64,000 nucleotides of DNA from Anabaena sp. UHCC 0187 (GTDB taxonomy: Bacteria; Cyanobacteriota; Cyanobacteriia; Cyanobacteriales; Nostocaceae): contig NZ_VILB01000014.1 in the NCBI RefSeq assembly GCF_009712035.1, forward strand, positions 336,086 to 400,085, given 5' to 3'. A model generated the notes under the pieces. The model was not told the DNA's origin and made no database searches. It worked only from the letters and a program-made list of their open reading frames with translations. Positions 55,580-63,122 of this stretch are shown here, piece by piece (within the stretch, counting starts at the first letter, position 1; every line of letters starts with the position of its first letter). A program made the position numbers and the translations under genes.

Positions 55580-58051
55580 CTAAGACTCAACACCTTGGGG
55601 TAATAACTCCCGTGTTAGTTGAGAACTAACTTGAACAATGCCATTTTCATCAACATCAACAAGAGCAGTATCGCCATCTTTGATGCGTCCAGACAGAATT
55701 TCTTCCGCCAAACTATCTTCCAACAAGCGCATAATTGCCCGACGTAATGGCCTTGCACCGTAGCTAGGACTATAACCCTCAGTGATCAAGCGATCCTTGA
55801 AGCGGTCTGTGACTTCTAAGACAATGCCTTTTTCCGTCAACCTACCGAAGACTTCCTTGAGCATGATTTCGGCAATTTGGGTAACTTCCAGCTTATTCAA
55901 CTGACGGAAGACGATAATTTCATCTAACCGGTTCAGGAACTCAGGACGGAAGTATTGCTTCAGTTCCTCATTCACCAAAGAGCGAATTCTGTTGTACTGT
56001 GTCTCAGTCGCATCTTCAGAGAACTCGAATCCGATACCGCTACCACCTTTTTCAATCACCTTAGAACCAATGTTGGAAGTCAAAATCAGCAAAGTGTTCT
56101 TAAAGTCCACCGTGCGACCTTTCGCGTCAGTTAAACGCCCATCTTCCAAAATTTGCAAGAGCATATTGAATACATCGGGGTGTGCTTTTTCGATTTCGTC
56201 GAATAGCACCACGGTGTAAGGACGACGACGGACAGCTTCAGTTAACTGACCACCTTCGTTGTAACCGACATAACCAGGAGGTGAACCGATCAATTTACTG
56301 ACGGTGTGACGCTCCATGTATTCGGACATATCCAAGCGAATCATGGCTTCTTCTGAACCGAAGAAGTAGGACGCTAAGGATTTGGCTAATTCGGTTTTAC
56401 CCACCCCAGTTGGCCCAGAGAAGACAAAACTAGCAATCGGTCTGTTGGGATTTTTCAAGCCAACGCGAGCGCGACGAATAGCTCTGGAAACAGCCTTCAC
56501 AGCGTCTTCTTGACCGATCAGTCGCTGGTGTAAGGTGTCCTCCATGTGCAGCAACTTCTCGGACTCAGATTCGGTGAGTTTGTTCACCGGTACACCTGTC
56601 CAGGAAGCGACAATGTGAGCAATGTCTTCTTCTGTAACTACAGGCTCAACACCGTCACCACTAGCGCCATTACTCTTAGTTTGAGCAATAGTGCGGATTT
56701 CGGCTTTGATTTCCATTTCCCGATCACGCAGTTCTCCCGCCCGATCAAAGTCCTGGGAACGGACTGCATCATCTTTTTCTTTTAAGATTTGCCGTAGTTC
56801 CTTGTCTAACTCCTTCGCTGCTGGGGGCAGTTGGGAGTTAATCAAGCGCACCCTTGAACCCGCTTCATCCATCAAGTCAATGGCTTTATCTGGCAAAAAG
56901 CGATCGCTAATATAACGATCAGACAATTTCGCCGCCGCCACCAATGCTTCATCGGATATCTTCAGCTTGTGGTGTGCTTCATAGCGATCGCGCAAACCAT
57001 ATAAAATTTCTATTGTTTCATCAACAGAAGGTTCACCCACCATCACAGGCTGGAAGCGTCTTTCCAACGCTGCATCCCGTTCAATGTGCTTGCGGTACTC
57101 ATCCAAAGTAGTCGCACCGATACATTGCAACTCACCCCGCGCCAAAGCTGGCTTGAGGATATTCGCCGCATCAATCGCCCCTTCGGCAGCACCCGCACCA
57201 ATTAAGGTGTGAACTTCGTCAATTACTAGGATGACATTACCCGCAGAGCGGATTTCATCCATAATTTTTTTGAGTCGTTCTTCAAATTCACCCCGATATT
57301 TAGTTCCTGCTACCAGTAAACCAATATCGAGAGTGACTACACGCTTATCTTCTAAGATATCGGGGATATCCTTACTGGCGATCCGTGAAGCTAAACCTTC
57401 AGCGATGGCTGTTTTACCAACACCTGGTTCACCAATCAAAACTGGATTGTTTTTCGTCCGGCGACCCAAAATTTGGATAACTCGCTCAATTTCCTTGGCG
57501 CGTCCCACCACAGGATCAAGCTTGTTATCTATGGCCATTTGGGTCAGATTCGATCCAAACTCATCAAGAGTTGGGGTTTTAGTGCGACCAGAGGGGCCAC
57601 CCGGCGTAACTTCCGCCGTTTCTCCCAACATCCGAATCACTTGGGTTCTCACCTTGGTCAAATCTACACCGAGGTTTTCTAGCACCCTGGCTGCGACACC
57701 TTCCCCTTCGCGGATCAGTCCCAACAGCAGATGCTCGGTACCAATGTAGTTATGCCCCAATTGGCGTGCTTCTTCCAAGGATAGTTCTAAAACCCGTTTT
57801 GCCCGTGGCGTAAACGGAATTTCCACGGCTACAAAGCCTGAACCCCGTCCTATGATTTTTTCAACTTCAATGCGAGCATCTTTGAGATTAACTCCCATTG
57901 ATTTCAGCACCTTGGCGGCTACTCCTGTGCCTTCGCCAATCAAACCCAAGAGGATTTGCTCAGTTCCGACAAAGTTGTGACCTAAACGGCGGGCCTCTTC
58001 TTGGGCCAGCATGATTACCTTAATGGCTTTTTCTGTGAAGCGCTCAAACAT
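55580..58051 (-). CDS. clpC: ATP-dependent Clp protease ATP-binding subunit ClpC
   Basis: ClpC is the AAA+ unfoldase of the Clp protease in cyanobacteria and chloroplasts. The 823-aa product has two N-terminal repeats ([40 protein letters not shown]), Walker A GEPGVGKT and Walker [14 protein letters not shown] in D1, a UVR/M domain ([20 protein letters not shown], then [15 protein letters not shown]), and Walker A GPTGVGKT with [12 protein letters not shown] in D2. The start at 58051 (MFERF) is the family's N-terminus; a longer frame to 58099 is unsupported. Cytosolic. It has its own terminator. The gap 58052-58623 is AT-rich with no gene. Confidence 0.97.
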
Positions 58052-58623
58052 GGCATTTTTCCTATCACCTGCGTCGTGCCGGTATGCTGATTTTAGCACA
58101 GGCTAAAATTTTGGGTATCTGTATAAACAATTTAGATATCCAATTACCATGACACAAATTGATAGGTTAATGAGTAGCTATTAATGAATTTCTATGTAGC
58201 TAGTGTACTGAGGAGAGTGATTTTACCAGCATTTTAGGGACTAAATCCAAACAATATACTATTGATGTTGAGATTTTGGTTAATACTCCCAAACAAAACT
58301 TAATATCATAAAAAAGATGTCAATGTCAATCTATTTGCCGAAGTGATAAGATTTTAATATCAATAAAAAAAATAATTGAAAATATTTTGATGGATTATCT
58401 ACACAAAAAATTTATTTTATTTTCACAAATGTGGTTTATGGTGGTCAGCTTTTTAAACCTTTTGTTTTAAATTGTCAAAGCGAGAGCTATATACTGATAT
58501 TGAGTGTCAATTCGCTTACAAAGCTGTCGTGCATCTAAATGAAGCTTTTTTCGTCTAAATGTTTTACACTTAGCCTTTTAGTCAGGACAAATAAATGCGC
58601 GACAGCCGTTATACTCGTGCTAT

Positions 58624-60630
58624 TCAGACGTTAATCAACGCTCTGATGTTGCCAATCTCATAATTAAGATCAGCAAATTCTTTTTTATAACGCGCCAATA
58701 TTGTTCTCAATTCTTGAGGAATATCATCATCTTCATTCTTGAGAATATAGCCGTATTTAATTGCAGTCAGAACATTGACCATATAGATCAGATTAGTAGA
58801 TTCTAAGATATTAGGAGCGATCGCTGGATCATCTTCACTACCAAAACTACCGCCGCGTAATGCCAGCGAATTATAGAAAATTTCTCCACCTTCATCAGCT
58901 TGAGCATCATTTACCCAAGAATGCCACAAAGTAATGTGGAAAATCACATAACGGCACAACTGTTTTAAGTTGTCAATATCCGTCTCCTGGGGTTGATCAG
59001 AAGTAGTAACAGGACGAGTAGCCTTGACTGTACCATTAACCGTAACTCTAGGGATATCAGAATTATCAAGCTCATTGTGATCATACCAATCGTAGTCACT
59101 ATCAGCAGCAGATCCGCAGGGTTGATGTGGTTGATAAGCAACACTATGTTGGACGAGATCATCAGATAAACGGTGAATTTCTACCCATTCTTTGACAATT
59201 TCATCTTGATAATTTGCAAAAAAGGCATCAAGATATTCGGTTAACACCTGCCAATACAGATTAGCGATCTTAGCAAAGGTATGAGATTCACATAAAGGTT
59301 GACGGGGTTTCCAACCTTTCCAATCATAAGTAGCCATACTTTCTTTGCAGATTTGTACTACCGAGTCCGGAGTTAATGGTCCATTGGTAGTTACTAAACC
59401 AATTGTCGGTGATACTAATACTTCATCAGCCCGTTGATTAATATTAACCAGACTTTTCACATGAGGAGCTAAGATCAGCCGAACAGGATTTTTGCGTAAG
59501 TTGCGGAAAGCAGCAATTGTATATTGCTCCATTTGTAAATGAGCCTTAATATAATGCTCAATCATTTCTGCTGCAAAGAAACTGTTAGTCCGAAAAATGC
59601 GTTTAGCTTGTAACCATTTTTCCCCATCTTTAGGGTTATAGGTAACAGGATCTTTCAGAGGAGAATGGGGAGATAAAGAATCAGGATAACGACTTTGCAC
59701 CGTAATTGCCGTAACCACCAAATTATTATCTTTCAGTTCAAAAAATGCTTCCACATTATTCAGATCGTGGTCATTATCCTTTTCATAATTATCCCAATTA
59801 AATGCTGCCTTAAACTGATTTGGATTCTGCTTATTCCGTTTCAGCAAACAGGGATTCATCCCACTAAGCACCCGCAACACAAAATATTCATCACTTCTGG
59901 TATAACCCGGATTTTTCCGATCTAATTTAATTGTTAAATTAGGAGGATAAGCCGCTTGAATTTCTGGTAAACTTGGCTGATCTGGATGAAGAGTATTGGT
60001 AATAACGTGCTTGGCTTTAATAGGAACTAAACCACTAGCAGCATCATAACCTTGGAGAGTCCGACCGACAGAATAATCGTCCGGTGTTCCTTCTAATTCA
60101 CTAAAAAACAGCCGCGCAAAGTGGCTATCTGGTTTATAAAGCCAGTAAGGAACGGTGCAAGTCCCGAAGTCGTATACTTTTTGAGTTACATTGTCATCAC
60201 CTTTGATAGTGTAAGCAATGCGATAGGTAGAAACTGGCTGATTATCACTATCAAAACTAATGCGATTTTCTAACAATCTTAATTCTAAATCTGGCTGATC
60301 TAGAAAGCCTGCTTTATCTGGATCATAGTAAATTGTAAACTGACCATTGTAGTCAGTTGCACCCCGACCTAAATAGTCTCCAGGTGTACCGATGTCTCTG
60401 TCCCACAGTTCTAATTGAATATTGTGTAGGGGCTTATTGGTATCACCAAAAACTAACTTACCAGTGGCTTTATGTAACTGATCAAGGGGTTTGTCAAATT
60501 CCTGTTCATGAATTTGGACAATGCTTTTTTTAGCTTTCTTTTCAGTTTTACTTTTTCCTAAATCGCTGTCGGCTAATTTAATTCCGAAAACTTGCTTAAT
60601 TTCATCAAGAATGGTTTTCAACTTGGACAT
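58624..60630 (-). CDS. Lipoxygenase family protein with transthyretin-like N-terminal domain
   Basis: The 668-aa product has a ~50-140 transthyretin-like (beta) domain (KPLHNIQLELWDRDIGTPGD, YLGRGATDYNGQFTIYYD), then the lipoxygenase catalytic part. The iron ligands are visible: H359-x4-H364 in HYIKAHLQMEQYTIAAFRNL, and H570-x3-N574 in LWHSWVND; the extreme C-terminal residue is Val in ALINV where Ile is usual. The motif NPVRLILAPHVKSLVNIN matches HPIHKLLxPHxxxTxxIN. Lipoxygenases add O2 to polyunsaturated fatty acids. It lacks a signal peptide. It is last in a three-gene cluster with a P450 and a SnoaL-like protein; an oxylipin pathway is inferred. Confidence 0.85.
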   Translation of the reverse strand: MSKLKTILDEIKQVFGIKLADSDLGKSKTEKKAKKSIVQIHEQEFDKPLDQLHKATGKLVFGDTNKPLHNIQLELWDRDIGTPGDYLGRGATDYNGQFTIYYDPDKAGFLDQPDLELRLLENRISFDSDNQPVSTYRIAYTIKGDDNVTQKVYDFGTCTVPYWLYKPDSHFARLFFSELEGTPDDYSVGRTLQGYDAASGLVPIKAKHVITNTLHPDQPSLPEIQAAYPPNLTIKLDRKNPGYTRSDEYFVLRVLSGMNPCLLKRNKQNPNQFKAAFNWDNYEKDNDHDLNNVEAFFELKDNNLVVTAITVQSRYPDSLSPHSPLKDPVTYNPKDGEKWLQAKRIFRTNSFFAAEMIEHYIKAHLQMEQYTIAAFRNLRKNPVRLILAPHVKSLVNINQRADEVLVSPTIGLVTTNGPLTPDSVVQICKESMATYDWKGWKPRQPLCESHTFAKIANLYWQVLTEYLDAFFANYQDEIVKEWVEIHRLSDDLVQHSVAYQPHQPCGSAADSDYDWYDHNELDNSDIPRVTVNGTVKATRPVTTSDQPQETDIDNLKQLCRYVIFHITLWHSWVNDAQADEGGEIFYNSLALRGGSFGSEDDPAIAPNILESTNLIYMVNVLTAIKYGYILKNEDDDIPQELRTILARYKKEFADLNYEIGNIRALINV

Positions 60631-60693
60631 GATAACTCCTGAAAATATTGATAAGTTTGCTAAAAGCTGTAAAGATATCTGGGAAATATCTGA

Positions 60694-62064
60694 TTACTTG
60701 TCATAACCAATGACAAAACGTTCTGGGATATAACCTTGATATTCAACTTTGCCTTCATCACCGGCAAGTAATTTGATGCCTGGACGTAATAGAATTTGTT
60801 TGATTACTTCAGGAACAATCACTCCACCAAGGTGTTCACCCAAACAGGTATGACTACCATAGCCAAAGTGCATATAGTTATATTTTGGACGTTCAATGGA
60901 AAATTCATCAGGATTAGTAACAACTGCTCCATCAAACATTGCTGAACCTACGCCGGCTAAAACAATGCTTTTAGCAGGGATGTGAGTTTCTCTGGGAGTT
61001 CCTGCGGCCAAGGTGTAATCTGCTTCACAAAAACGCACCAGAAAAGGGCTAAAGGGGTTAAAACGAATTGCTTCCCAAACGTATTTATCAAAGGTTTGAT
61101 TATCGTCAGCTTGGGCTGCTGCTAAGGCTTTTGCGAAGATTTCTGGACGTTTGAGAATTTGTTCTACACCTTGAGTAATCACCTGACCTGTACCTTCAAT
61201 ACTACCCACTAACAAAATGATCATGTGGCTGATGATCTTGGTTTCATCAAAGGGAATATCACTGGCAAATTTTGTGTTTGCTAACCGAGTAAAAATGTCT
61301 GCTGGTGCGGCAGATTTGTCATTGTTAGAATTTTGATTACTTGTTTGATTGCTGGGACTAAAAATTGATTTTAACCAGCCTTGGAATATTTCTCCTGATG
61401 ATAAATCATCTATGCTTTTAGGTGACTCTTGAGCAATTTGGGCTTTTTTCTGTTCCAGAAGTTGACCCAAGTAAACACGCATTTCTTGTCCGGCTTGAAC
61501 CGAAGCTTCGTGGACTTTAGCATCGTTGGTCAAATTTCTAAACATATCGTCTTGGGTGGATTTTGCCCAGCGATACATAGTTTCTAAATCAGGACCAGGA
61601 AACCCAAAATAGTCGCCGCAAATTTTGATAGGAACATATTTTCCTAACTCACGAACAACTTCGATTTTACCGGTTTTTGCGGATTCATCTAAACGTGATT
61701 TGGCAATTTCACCGGCTCTTTTTCTGACAAGTGGTAAATCTTCCAATTGCAACATTGATCTCATAATTGACTTTTCTTGCCAATTATGTTCTGTGTTATC
61801 TCTAGCCAGCATACAAGGTCCGAAAACAGGGTCCATTTTGGGAGCAAAGGTTCTGACTGAGAAGTGTTCGGAGCGAGATAAAACCTCTTGTACGTCTGGA
61901 AATAAACTTACCAGTGTAAATCTAGGTGTGATAAAAATGGGTCGTTTTTCTCTGAGTTCTTTAAATAAACCCTGCCAATCTGTCCAAACTCCTTGATTGA
62001 CTACTTTAACTCTATCGGCAATGTTTTCCGCCGGAATGCTATTGTACCTTTCTAAATAGGACAT
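60694..62064 (-). CDS. Cytochrome P450
   Basis: A 456-aa soluble P450. The heme signature is FGYGSHTCLGEHLG with the thiolate Cys near residue 407, ExxR is EAIRFNPFS, and the I-helix reads IILLVGSIEGTGQVITQG, where the usual (A/G)Gx(D/E)TT has Glu-Gly-Thr. There is a low-complexity Ser/Asn insert around 235-255. The absence of a clear acid-Thr pair resembles P450s that isomerise or dehydrate hydroperoxides (CYP74-like chemistry) rather than hydroxylate; that is an inference. It lies 63 bp upstream of the lipoxygenase gene, so it may use its hydroperoxide product. Confidence 0.92.
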   Translation of the reverse strand: MSYLERYNSIPAENIADRVKVVNQGVWTDWQGLFKELREKRPIFITPRFTLVSLFPDVQEVLSRSEHFSVRTFAPKMDPVFGPCMLARDNTEHNWQEKSIMRSMLQLEDLPLVRKRAGEIAKSRLDESAKTGKIEVVRELGKYVPIKICGDYFGFPGPDLETMYRWAKSTQDDMFRNLTNDAKVHEASVQAGQEMRVYLGQLLEQKKAQIAQESPKSIDDLSSGEIFQGWLKSIFSPSNQTSNQNSNNDKSAAPADIFTRLANTKFASDIPFDETKIISHMIILLVGSIEGTGQVITQGVEQILKRPEIFAKALAAAQADDNQTFDKYVWEAIRFNPFSPFLVRFCEADYTLAAGTPRETHIPAKSIVLAGVGSAMFDGAVVTNPDEFSIERPKYNYMHFGYGSHTCLGEHLGGVIVPEVIKQILLRPGIKLLAGDEGKVEYQGYIPERFVIGYDK

Positions 62065-62186
62065 AAGACTTCTTTGTTTTTTTGTGTTATTTCTGGAATC
62101 AACTACTATTAGCTTTCTGGATGAACTTAAATAAATATCAATTACTGAGTTTGTAGACCTGATTTGACAACGCAGTTAATTTTTAC

Positions 62187-62585
62187 CTAAGAAACAGAAT
62201 CTACATCATGAATTGTTCCCACAATGATTTTCCAGCGCTCGTCTACTTTACGCATGGTATAAGTAAATCCAAAGCTAGTTAGTAGTTTATTATCTTTGGT
62301 GTAGCGGGTGGCAACTGCACTAACTACGGCTAGATTATCACTGAGTAATTTAACTTTAAGAGGACCAGTTTCACTTCTACCATAGTTTTGTTTTTTTAAA
62401 TCACCTACGATTTTTGTAAAAACAATCCACAGTTTGAAGCCATTGGTAATAGTGACTGCTGTTTCTGGTGTAATTAGTATTGATGGATAGTGATAAAATG
62501 GATCTAATATACTAGGCTTAAGCTTGGCAAATGCCTCGTTGTATTCGGCAATTGTTTCTATTACCTTTTTCGTTTCATCTTGCAT
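62187..62585 (-). CDS. NTF2/SnoaL-like protein
   Basis: The start is ATG 62585, with AGAGGA seven bases upstream; an in-frame longer frame to 62627 lacks a site. The 132-aa product (MQDETKKVIETIAEYNEAFA, then SFGFTYTMRKVDERWKIIVG) has the alternate helix-strand pattern of the NTF2-like fold with a ligand pocket. It is the first gene of the P450-lipoxygenase cluster, 122 bp upstream of the P450. It may bind or cyclise an oxylipin, but this is inference. Confidence 0.75.
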   Translation of the reverse strand: MQDETKKVIETIAEYNEAFAKLKPSILDPFYHYPSILITPETAVTITNGFKLWIVFTKIVGDLKKQNYGRSETGPLKVKLLSDNLAVVSAVATRYTKDNKLLTSFGFTYTMRKVDERWKIIVGTIHDVDSVS

Positions 62586-63067
62586 AGAAATATCCTCTGG
62601 AACTGATTTTTGACATAGTGTAAGCACGCGCTAACTTTTGCTAAGTTCAATCACAGCAAATTGATAGTACACAATGGCGATTTTATCGAACAGAATTCAG
62701 GAGTCAGAATTCTTAAATGTTTTCTGTGCCAGTGGTGGATGAATAAACGGCGTTTTTGCACCCCCACCAAATATACGATTTGGTGGTCTTTAATCAGTCG
62801 CAGGTCTGTACCTTGCTTCCCGCAAGGTATCCTCGACGGATTGATTCTGACTCCTGGCTACTGACTCCTTCTTCAAATTGGTATTTTCAAGATCTTTGGT
62901 TAAGTAGAACTAAATACAATCTGATGGATACAATACATCAACAAACACCAGTTTTTTCTAAAAAAAAGTTAAATTATGTGAATTTACTTAAATATGAACT
63001 TTAATTACAGAATAGGGACAAAAACCACCATTCTATGATTTTGCCCTCTGTGCCTAAAAAATAATCA
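62586..63067. other. Gene-free gap upstream of the lipoxygenase cluster
   Basis: No supported gene. It holds a heptamer-like motif (ACTCCTGGCTACTGACTCCT near 62850-62869), AT-rich sequence and probably the cluster's promoter on the minus strand. Confidence 0.5.
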
Positions 63068-63098
63068 GATCCCTGACTTCTCAAAGAAGTCAGGGATC
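63061..63098 (-). terminator. ctaB terminator
   Basis: GATCCCTGACTTCT (63068-63081) pairs with AGAAGTCAGGGATC (63085-63098) in a perfect 14-bp stem with a 3-nt loop. On the minus strand it is followed by TGATTATTTTTT, 24 nt after the ctaB stop. Confidence 0.85.
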
Positions 63099-63122
63099 TT
63101 TATCTCTATCTCCTGAGTATTA

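Follow-up and report, generated by a model that had tools for sequence, protein, structure and literature searches.

Cyanobacteria are already known to couple a lipoxygenase (LOX) to a heme enzyme that converts the resulting hydroperoxide further, as with the catalase-related hemoproteins of Anabaena and Acaryochloris (parts of PMC11719350 and PMC6627107). Nostoc punctiforme has a 10S-dioxygenase (10S-DOX) together with a separate catalase-related hydroperoxide lyase, and in fungal dioxygenase-cytochrome P450 (DOX-CYP) fusions, as in cyclooxygenase (COX) working with TXS or PGIS, a dioxygenase is combined with a peroxide-isomerizing P450 (passages of PMC13049297). The plant jasmonate route combines a LOX with a P450 of the CYP74 type, allene oxide synthase (AOS), and a small third protein, allene oxide cyclase (AOC). 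Here we describe a three-gene cassette of Anabaena sp. UHCC 0187 (GCF_009712035.1), located in a stretch of 64,000 nucleotides (contig NZ_VILB01000014.1, positions 336,086 to 400,085 of the forward strand) that is referred to below as the window. In contrast to the LOX/catalase-related fusions, the heme partner in the window is a P450 encoded by a separate gene. The fungal, COX, and plant systems are likenesses of function only. The cassette differs from the DOX-CYP and COX systems in having separate genes, a bacterial P450, and mostly a LOX as the partner; it differs from the jasmonate route in the I-helix of its P450, where the plant AOS sequence is absent, and in its third protein, which is NTF2-like. 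We put the probability at roughly 0.55 that the genes constitute a compact oxylipin cassette in which the P450 uses the LOX hydroperoxide.

The cassette and its closest characterized relative

Read along the minus strand, the cassette begins with a gene for an NTF2-like (DUF6841) protein at 62187 to 62585, encoding 132 amino acids from an ATG (Pfam PF20795, 31.3 bits against a cut-off of 27); an upstream GTG would lengthen the frame to 62627. It is followed by a P450 gene at 60694 to 62064 (456 amino acids; PF00067, 46.6 bits) and a CspLOX1-type LOX gene at 58624 to 60630 (668 amino acids), the product of which aligned over its residues 2 to 668 with the solved structure 5ek8 (1047.9 bits). 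The gaps are 122 and 63 bp, and all three frames are intact. An earlier note on this DNA had reported three same-strand genes with this order and spacing, and the open reading frame coordinates agree.

The window LOX resembles 5ek8 over its full length, including the N-terminal domain, at about 65% identity. Genome G387 encodes a LOX that matches 5ek8 at all 668 of 668 residues and that agrees, at each of six positions, with what Table 1 of PMC5437038 lists for CspLOX1 of Cyanothece PCC 8801. This identifies 5ek8 as CspLOX1 and makes G387 very probably Cyanothece PCC 8801. CspLOX1 is described as a 9R-LOX in that paper. In G387, the gene for the identical protein lies directly after a P450 gene of the family described here.

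A P450 that keeps dioxygenase partners

A P450 gene followed on the same strand by a CspLOX1-type LOX gene was found in 10 genomes: the window, Dolichospermum sp. UHCC 0259 (G013, of the same genus as the window's genome), Nostoc CHAB 5844, Cyanothece BG0011 (G656), UBA11370 (G584), G675, G617, G670, G333, and G387. No gene separates the two in six of these; in the others, the single intervening gene encodes a second P450 (BG0011), the NTF2-like protein (G617), or a DUF1304 protein (G675 and UBA11370). All three cassette genes occur together at four loci besides the window (UHCC 0259, CHAB 5844, BG0011, and G617); the earlier note had named a lack of linkage in other genomes as refuting its view, and this refutation did not occur. 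Among the literature matches listed, which were judged by title and the start of the abstract and whose scope did not extend to the CspLOX1 structure paper (10.1194/jlr.M064980) or to Brash 2014 (10.1074/jbc.M114.555904), there was none that described this P450 or reported that its gene is linked to that of CspLOX1.

The P450 belongs to a distinct cyanobacterial family, with matches at E≤1e-20 in 9 of 388 class-sampled and 14 of 388 order-sampled genomes, two samples that overlap. We aligned 17 members, including the four named loci, and left out those of G622, G604, G301, and G223, which are 24 to 32% identical. A dioxygenase-type gene was adjacent or one gene away in 15 of the 17, the partners being 10 LOXs, 2 COX homologs, 2 RoxA-like proteins, and 1 divergent LOX. 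RoxA is a dioxygenase, and in G392 and G619 the RoxA-like protein precedes the P450. One gene lies between the divergent LOX and the P450 in G211. By eye, no dioxygenase gene was recognized near the P450 of G690, and the P450 of G560 is at a contig edge. In two genomes (L086:7844-10888 and L127:5559-8493), P450 relatives of about 36% identity directly follow a RoxA-like cytochrome-type protein, possibly another dioxygenase-P450 pair.

In G246 and G279, whose P450s are 60% and 44% identical to that of the window, the P450 gene is followed by one for a protein of the animal heme peroxidase family. The G246 protein, the sole one searched, matched PGHS-2 with an E value of 1.9e-74. The motifs FTDxF, F...Y.WH, and R.[IV]G.DAF.QA plus a central Tyr, adapted from those printed for the N. 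punctiforme 10S-DOX in part of PMC13049297, were present in all three COX homologs (G246, G279, and UBA11370). UBA11370 carries both a LOX and a COX homolog. The G246 and G279 proteins are thus akin to the 10S-DOX, and they differ from that system in having a P450 gene as companion. The swapping of unrelated dioxygenases beside the P450 is our best evidence that the P450 acts on a dioxygenase product, most likely a hydroperoxide.

The breadth of partners could also be read as housekeeping, with the P450 a peroxidase or peroxygenase that clears lipid hydroperoxides left by LOXs, COX-like enzymes, and other oxidases and makes no dedicated product. A DyP-type peroxidase near two distant P450 relatives (L129 in G604 and L136 in G223) fits this explanation. 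We consider it very unlikely, however, since a lipase homolog at 7 of the 10 P450-LOX loci and an NTF2-like gene at 5 of them resemble a production line. Neighbors at L128 and L135 also look DyP-like by eye.

The LOX and its predicted product

The iron ligands H359, H364, H570, and N574 and the C-terminal V668 are all present in the window LOX, bearing out the full His/Asn set claimed before; this set (HHHNV) is complete in 18 of 18 aligned LOXs, and CspLOX1 has an equal one. The Pfam match to PF00305 (39.4 bits, cut-off 23.6) is confined to residues 332 to 407. A transthyretin-like N-terminal domain had also been assigned. The N terminus does align with that of 5ek8, but the Pfam match fell below threshold, at 21.4 against a cut-off of 24.9 bits.

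At positions 401 and 617, the Gly and Ile of CspLOX1 are replaced by Ala and Met in the window LOX, the product of which may accordingly differ. Codon 401 (59428 to 59430, minus strand) was assigned by alignment and encodes the stereocontrol site, with residue roles taken from Table 1 of PMC5437038. Ala occupies the site in 15 of the 18 LOXs; the Gly of the other three (PCC 8801, G333, and UBA11370) belongs to a single clade with support of 100/100. The Gly401 feature of R-LOXs, absent from the window enzyme, is a trait of product specificity that does not define the family. The same table gives Gly in the four R-LOXs other than CspLOX2 and Ala in the three S-LOXs; CspLOX2, an 11R bis-allylic enzyme, also carries Ala. 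When CspLOX1 was changed to G401A, the enzyme kept only 5 to 8% activity and made 6% 11-hydroperoxide, and the section of PMC5437038 on this variant mentions no switch to 13S. A passage of PMC13059375 presents the Ala-S/Gly-R rule as having a few exceptions, one of the references cited for them being to the Anabaena mini-LOX. Because of the Ala at this site, a 13S product, rather than the 9R product of CspLOX1, is plausible for the window LOX.

The window's genome has 11 desaturase-family matches, which makes a supply of polyunsaturated fatty acids plausible. It also contains further lipoxygenase-family genes, one at C4:685618-686790 and two in tandem at C22:3306-5722. The LOX query gave no match to plasmids. 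A more distant LOX (37 to 41% identical) belongs to a conserved four-gene set at four of four loci (L080, L081, L133, and L134), the other members being a protein of the MIF/tautomerase family (Pfam, one copy) and a pair of small proteins that belong to no known family.

Candidate accessory proteins

A gene of PF09994 type, named for the catalytic domain of Tle1-like phospholipases of the type VI secretion system (T6SS), stands ahead of the P450 gene at 7 of the 10 P450-LOX loci. Its Pfam assignment was made on the UHCC 0259 copy and the others were recognized by similarity; phospholipase activity would follow from the family name. The gene is missing from the locus in the window, UBA11370, and G617. 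No lipase homolog was found in the window's genome at E≤0.001, in a search run without the query's source genome as a control. A class 3 lipase gene adjoins the LOX in G178 (Pfam; L076:6923-7726) and a 49% identical relative adjoins that of G617 (L123:11471-12310); this is perhaps another substrate-releasing partner.

The small protein had been called SnoaL-like. At E≤0.1, Pfam returned only DUF6841 and DUF4440, with neither a SnoaL nor an allene oxide cyclase model, and we describe it as an NTF2-like DUF6841 protein instead. It had no match in the PDB at E≤1. Plant AOC, for comparison, has the fold of a lipocalin-like barrel. The NTF2-like gene is present at 5 of the 10 P450-LOX loci (the window, UHCC 0259, CHAB 5844, BG0011, and G617), and its product shares 95, 69, and 54% identity with the orthologs of three named loci and 83% with that of G617. 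It accompanies 5 of the 7 LOXs with Ala401 and 0 of the 3 with Gly401, an association of small numbers in which all three Gly LOXs fall within a single clade. The protein is a candidate cyclase, hydrolase, or binding protein, and this is the weakest step of our proposal.

AlphaFold2 models of the P450 (five sequences) and the NTF2-like protein (four sequences) had mean predicted local distance difference test scores of 34.9 and 54.7, too poor for fold searches.

Constraint and shared divergence

Between the window and UHCC 0259, nonsynonymous and synonymous divergence (dN/dS) were 0.0634/0.4815 for the LOX (∼0.13), 0.0353/0.2611 for the P450 (∼0.14), and 0.0265/0.1631 for the NTF2-like gene (∼0.16), with clpC as a control at 0.0047/0.1815 (∼0.03). 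All three cassette genes look to be under constraint. Across the 10 genomes, pairwise identities of LOX and P450 were correlated (r=0.896; none of 5,000 permutations was as high), although shared ancestry may account for some of this value because the correlation had no third-gene control. The view of the earlier note that a polyunsaturated fatty acid is oxygenated and that the P450 acts on the LOX product gains from this correlation, from the 10-genome linkage, and from the 10S-DOX-type COX homologs that take the place of the LOX in two genomes, but not from its isomerization motif, considered below. Compared with the P450 of Nostoc CHAB 5844, those of G675, from the same family, and G617, from a different one, are closer to the window P450, which hints at transfer.

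Evidence on the chemistry of the P450

Several observations count against hydroperoxide use, and they begin within the P450 itself. The window P450 has a canonical heme loop (FxxGxxxCxG, FGYGSHTCLG at residue 400) and ExxR motif (EAIR at 331), and its similarity to solved P450s is moderate only, with a best E value of 1.6e-15. The earlier note held that it lacks the usual acid-Thr pair of the I-helix and that this fits hydroperoxide isomerization. In the window, the sequence is VGSIEGTG (Glu290-Gly291 at 61192 to 61197, minus strand, by alignment): the acid, Glu290, is kept, the Thr is replaced by Gly291, and a Thr follows one place later. The acid is present in 12 of 12 aligned P450s and the pair is intact in 7 of 12, as in O2-using P450s. 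Glu-Gly occurs in the window, UHCC 0259, BG0011, G675, and G617; Glu-Thr in CHAB 5844, G670, UBA11370, G333, G246, and G279; and Asp-Thr in PCC 8801, where the P450 adjoins the 5ek8 gene itself. Loss of the pair is therefore no family trait, and the isomerization argument fails as it was put. To our knowledge, no member of this P450 family has a known activity.

On the P450 tree, the Gly state requires two separate changes, and among LOX-linked members Gly replaces Thr in 5 of 10. The window I-helix also does not match the plant AOS sequence (Asn321 followed by TwGG) given in part of PMC13049297, and the same account notes that the residues around this site in fungal peroxide-isomerizing P450s can be polar or nonpolar, so that no single I-helix residue is diagnostic. 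The variability of the Thr among LOX-linked members would be easier to explain if O2 activation were not required, and it mildly favors peroxide chemistry. The motif cannot decide the matter, because the pair is intact in other members, above all beside the CspLOX1 gene.

These residues also bear on a second explanation, in which the P450 would be a ferredoxin-dependent monooxygenase of the ordinary kind and would hydroxylate or epoxidize the LOX product or a fatty acid with O2. The heme loop, the ExxR motif, the universal acid, and the Thr of seven members are all as expected of such an enzyme, and the best matches by sequence are to bacterial P450s that carry hydroxylase or epoxidase names. 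Set against this are the Thr-to-Gly change in five LOX-linked members, including that of the window, and partners that are peroxide-forming enzymes from unrelated families; moreover, no ferredoxin or reductase gene was seen at the loci on reading the open reading frame lists without a profile search. We regard a monooxygenase as somewhat unlikely.

As an observation in its own right, a 156-residue N-terminal extension is in frame with the P450 at five P450-LOX loci (G333, G387, G675, G617, and G670; L078, L079, L122, L123, and L124), with a weak, subthreshold FRG1-like match in the one copy tested.

The other observations on this side concern the linkage. CspLOX1-type LOXs lack a P450 of this family at their loci in G142, G178, G424, G715, and G475, and also in G611 (upstream side cut by the contig end) and at the decayed loci of G001 and G006. 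Among other cyanobacterial COX homologs (165 genomes searched), none of five had a P450 of this family nearby, L168 being cut on its upstream side by the contig end. Between the window and UHCC 0259, the synonymous divergence of the LOX (0.48) exceeds that of the P450 (0.26) and clpC (0.18), and the P450 tree joins the two genomes as sisters (100/99), whereas the LOX tree gives no supported pairing. The high divergence suggests that their LOXs are not of quite equal history, and LOX and P450 have therefore not been strictly co-inherited even within the genus. The NTF2-like gene had no match at E≤0.001 in the genomes of the other five P450-LOX loci (G584 is 88% complete). Its relatives elsewhere, 37 to 45% identical and in nine genomes besides the window (165 searched; one copy interrupted), adjoin an alpha/beta hydrolase at 8 of 9 loci by eye, with two hydrolases confirmed. 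At L142, L157 to L160, and L162 to L164, the stretches read contained no match to the cassette LOX or P450. G246, which is among the loci read, has its 45% identical relative on another contig than its P450.

Unequal divergence and LOX loci without a P450 are what would be seen if the genes were neighbors for regulatory or historical reasons, with membrane lipid the substrate of a LOX that acts by itself and some other compound that of the P450, and CspLOX1 is said to draw its substrate from the membrane (part of PMC6164985). Nevertheless, the order of P450 then LOX on one strand is kept in ten genomes, and the P450 keeps dioxygenase partners where a CspLOX1-type LOX is absent. Of the explanations considered, this one has the least credence with us.

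Flanking genes, transcription signals, and decaying loci

The cassette is flanked by ctaB (63123 onwards) and clpC (55580 to 58099), names that were read by eye from the proteins. A terminator-like hairpin on the minus strand at 63067 to 63099, a consensus match only, lies just 3' of ctaB and upstream of the cassette; its 15-pair stem is followed by GATTATTTTT. Terminator-like sites were in excess (9 versus 3.3 in shuffles) and promoter-like sites were not (13 versus 16.5). A consensus scan found no minus-strand terminator-like site within the 122-bp or the 63-bp gap, so that co-transcription of the three genes is plausible only.

In a survey of 16 genomes of the genus, a full-length LOX of CspLOX1 type was found in four, C-terminal fragments only in three, and none in nine; at those LOX loci, the P450 was intact at two and reduced to a 33-residue remnant at one. 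Dolichospermum-group loci beside ctaB (L073, L074, L087, L088, and L089) appear to show the cassette decaying stepwise, the states being a LOX with P450 and lipase remnants, a LOX with a split lipase gene, and a C-terminal LOX fragment alone. At two loci without a P450 (L075:6570-7838 and L077:6357-7691), a protein of 422 to 444 amino acids and no recognized family is encoded directly 3' of the LOX, followed at L075 by a fragment matching the LOX C terminus. In G142 and G424, the neighbor of the LOX resembled a catalase by eye; the resemblance found no support in Pfam, NCBIfam (one of two), or the PDB and was not used as evidence.

A proposed pathway and its significance

In the fuller form of the cassette, the Tle1-like lipase homolog would free polyunsaturated acyl chains, which the CspLOX1-type LOX would convert to a hydroperoxide, as reported for CspLOX1 and as we infer for the window. 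The P450 would then take this hydroperoxide as both substrate and oxygen source and form an allene oxide, epoxy alcohol, diol, or cleavage product. The NTF2-like protein, where encoded, might cyclize, hydrolyze, or bind what the P450 makes. Because no copy of the lipase gene was detected in its genome, the window LOX may use another lipid source or membrane lipid directly, and given Ala401 its hydroperoxide may be 13S rather than 9R. A bolder version, which we think quite unlikely, is an independently evolved bacterial route of jasmonate- or prostanoid-like character, with a 13S-LOX (Ala401), a non-CYP74 P450 serving as allene oxide synthase or a similar peroxide isomerase, and an NTF2-fold cyclase, in which the P450 family would accept peroxides from LOXs, COX-like enzymes, and other dioxygenases.

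Such a cassette would parallel, in bacteria, the making of oxidized-lipid signals by plants and animals. A LOX of solved structure adjoins a conserved P450, which offers a testable next step for the pathway. Should the P450 use hydroperoxides, it would represent a bacterial family doing such chemistry outside CYP74, with dioxygenase partners that can be swapped, and this would bear on the origins of LOX/P450 and COX/P450 cascades. Dolichospermum is a bloom-forming genus, and oxylipins in such hosts could serve in defense against grazing or contribute to odor.

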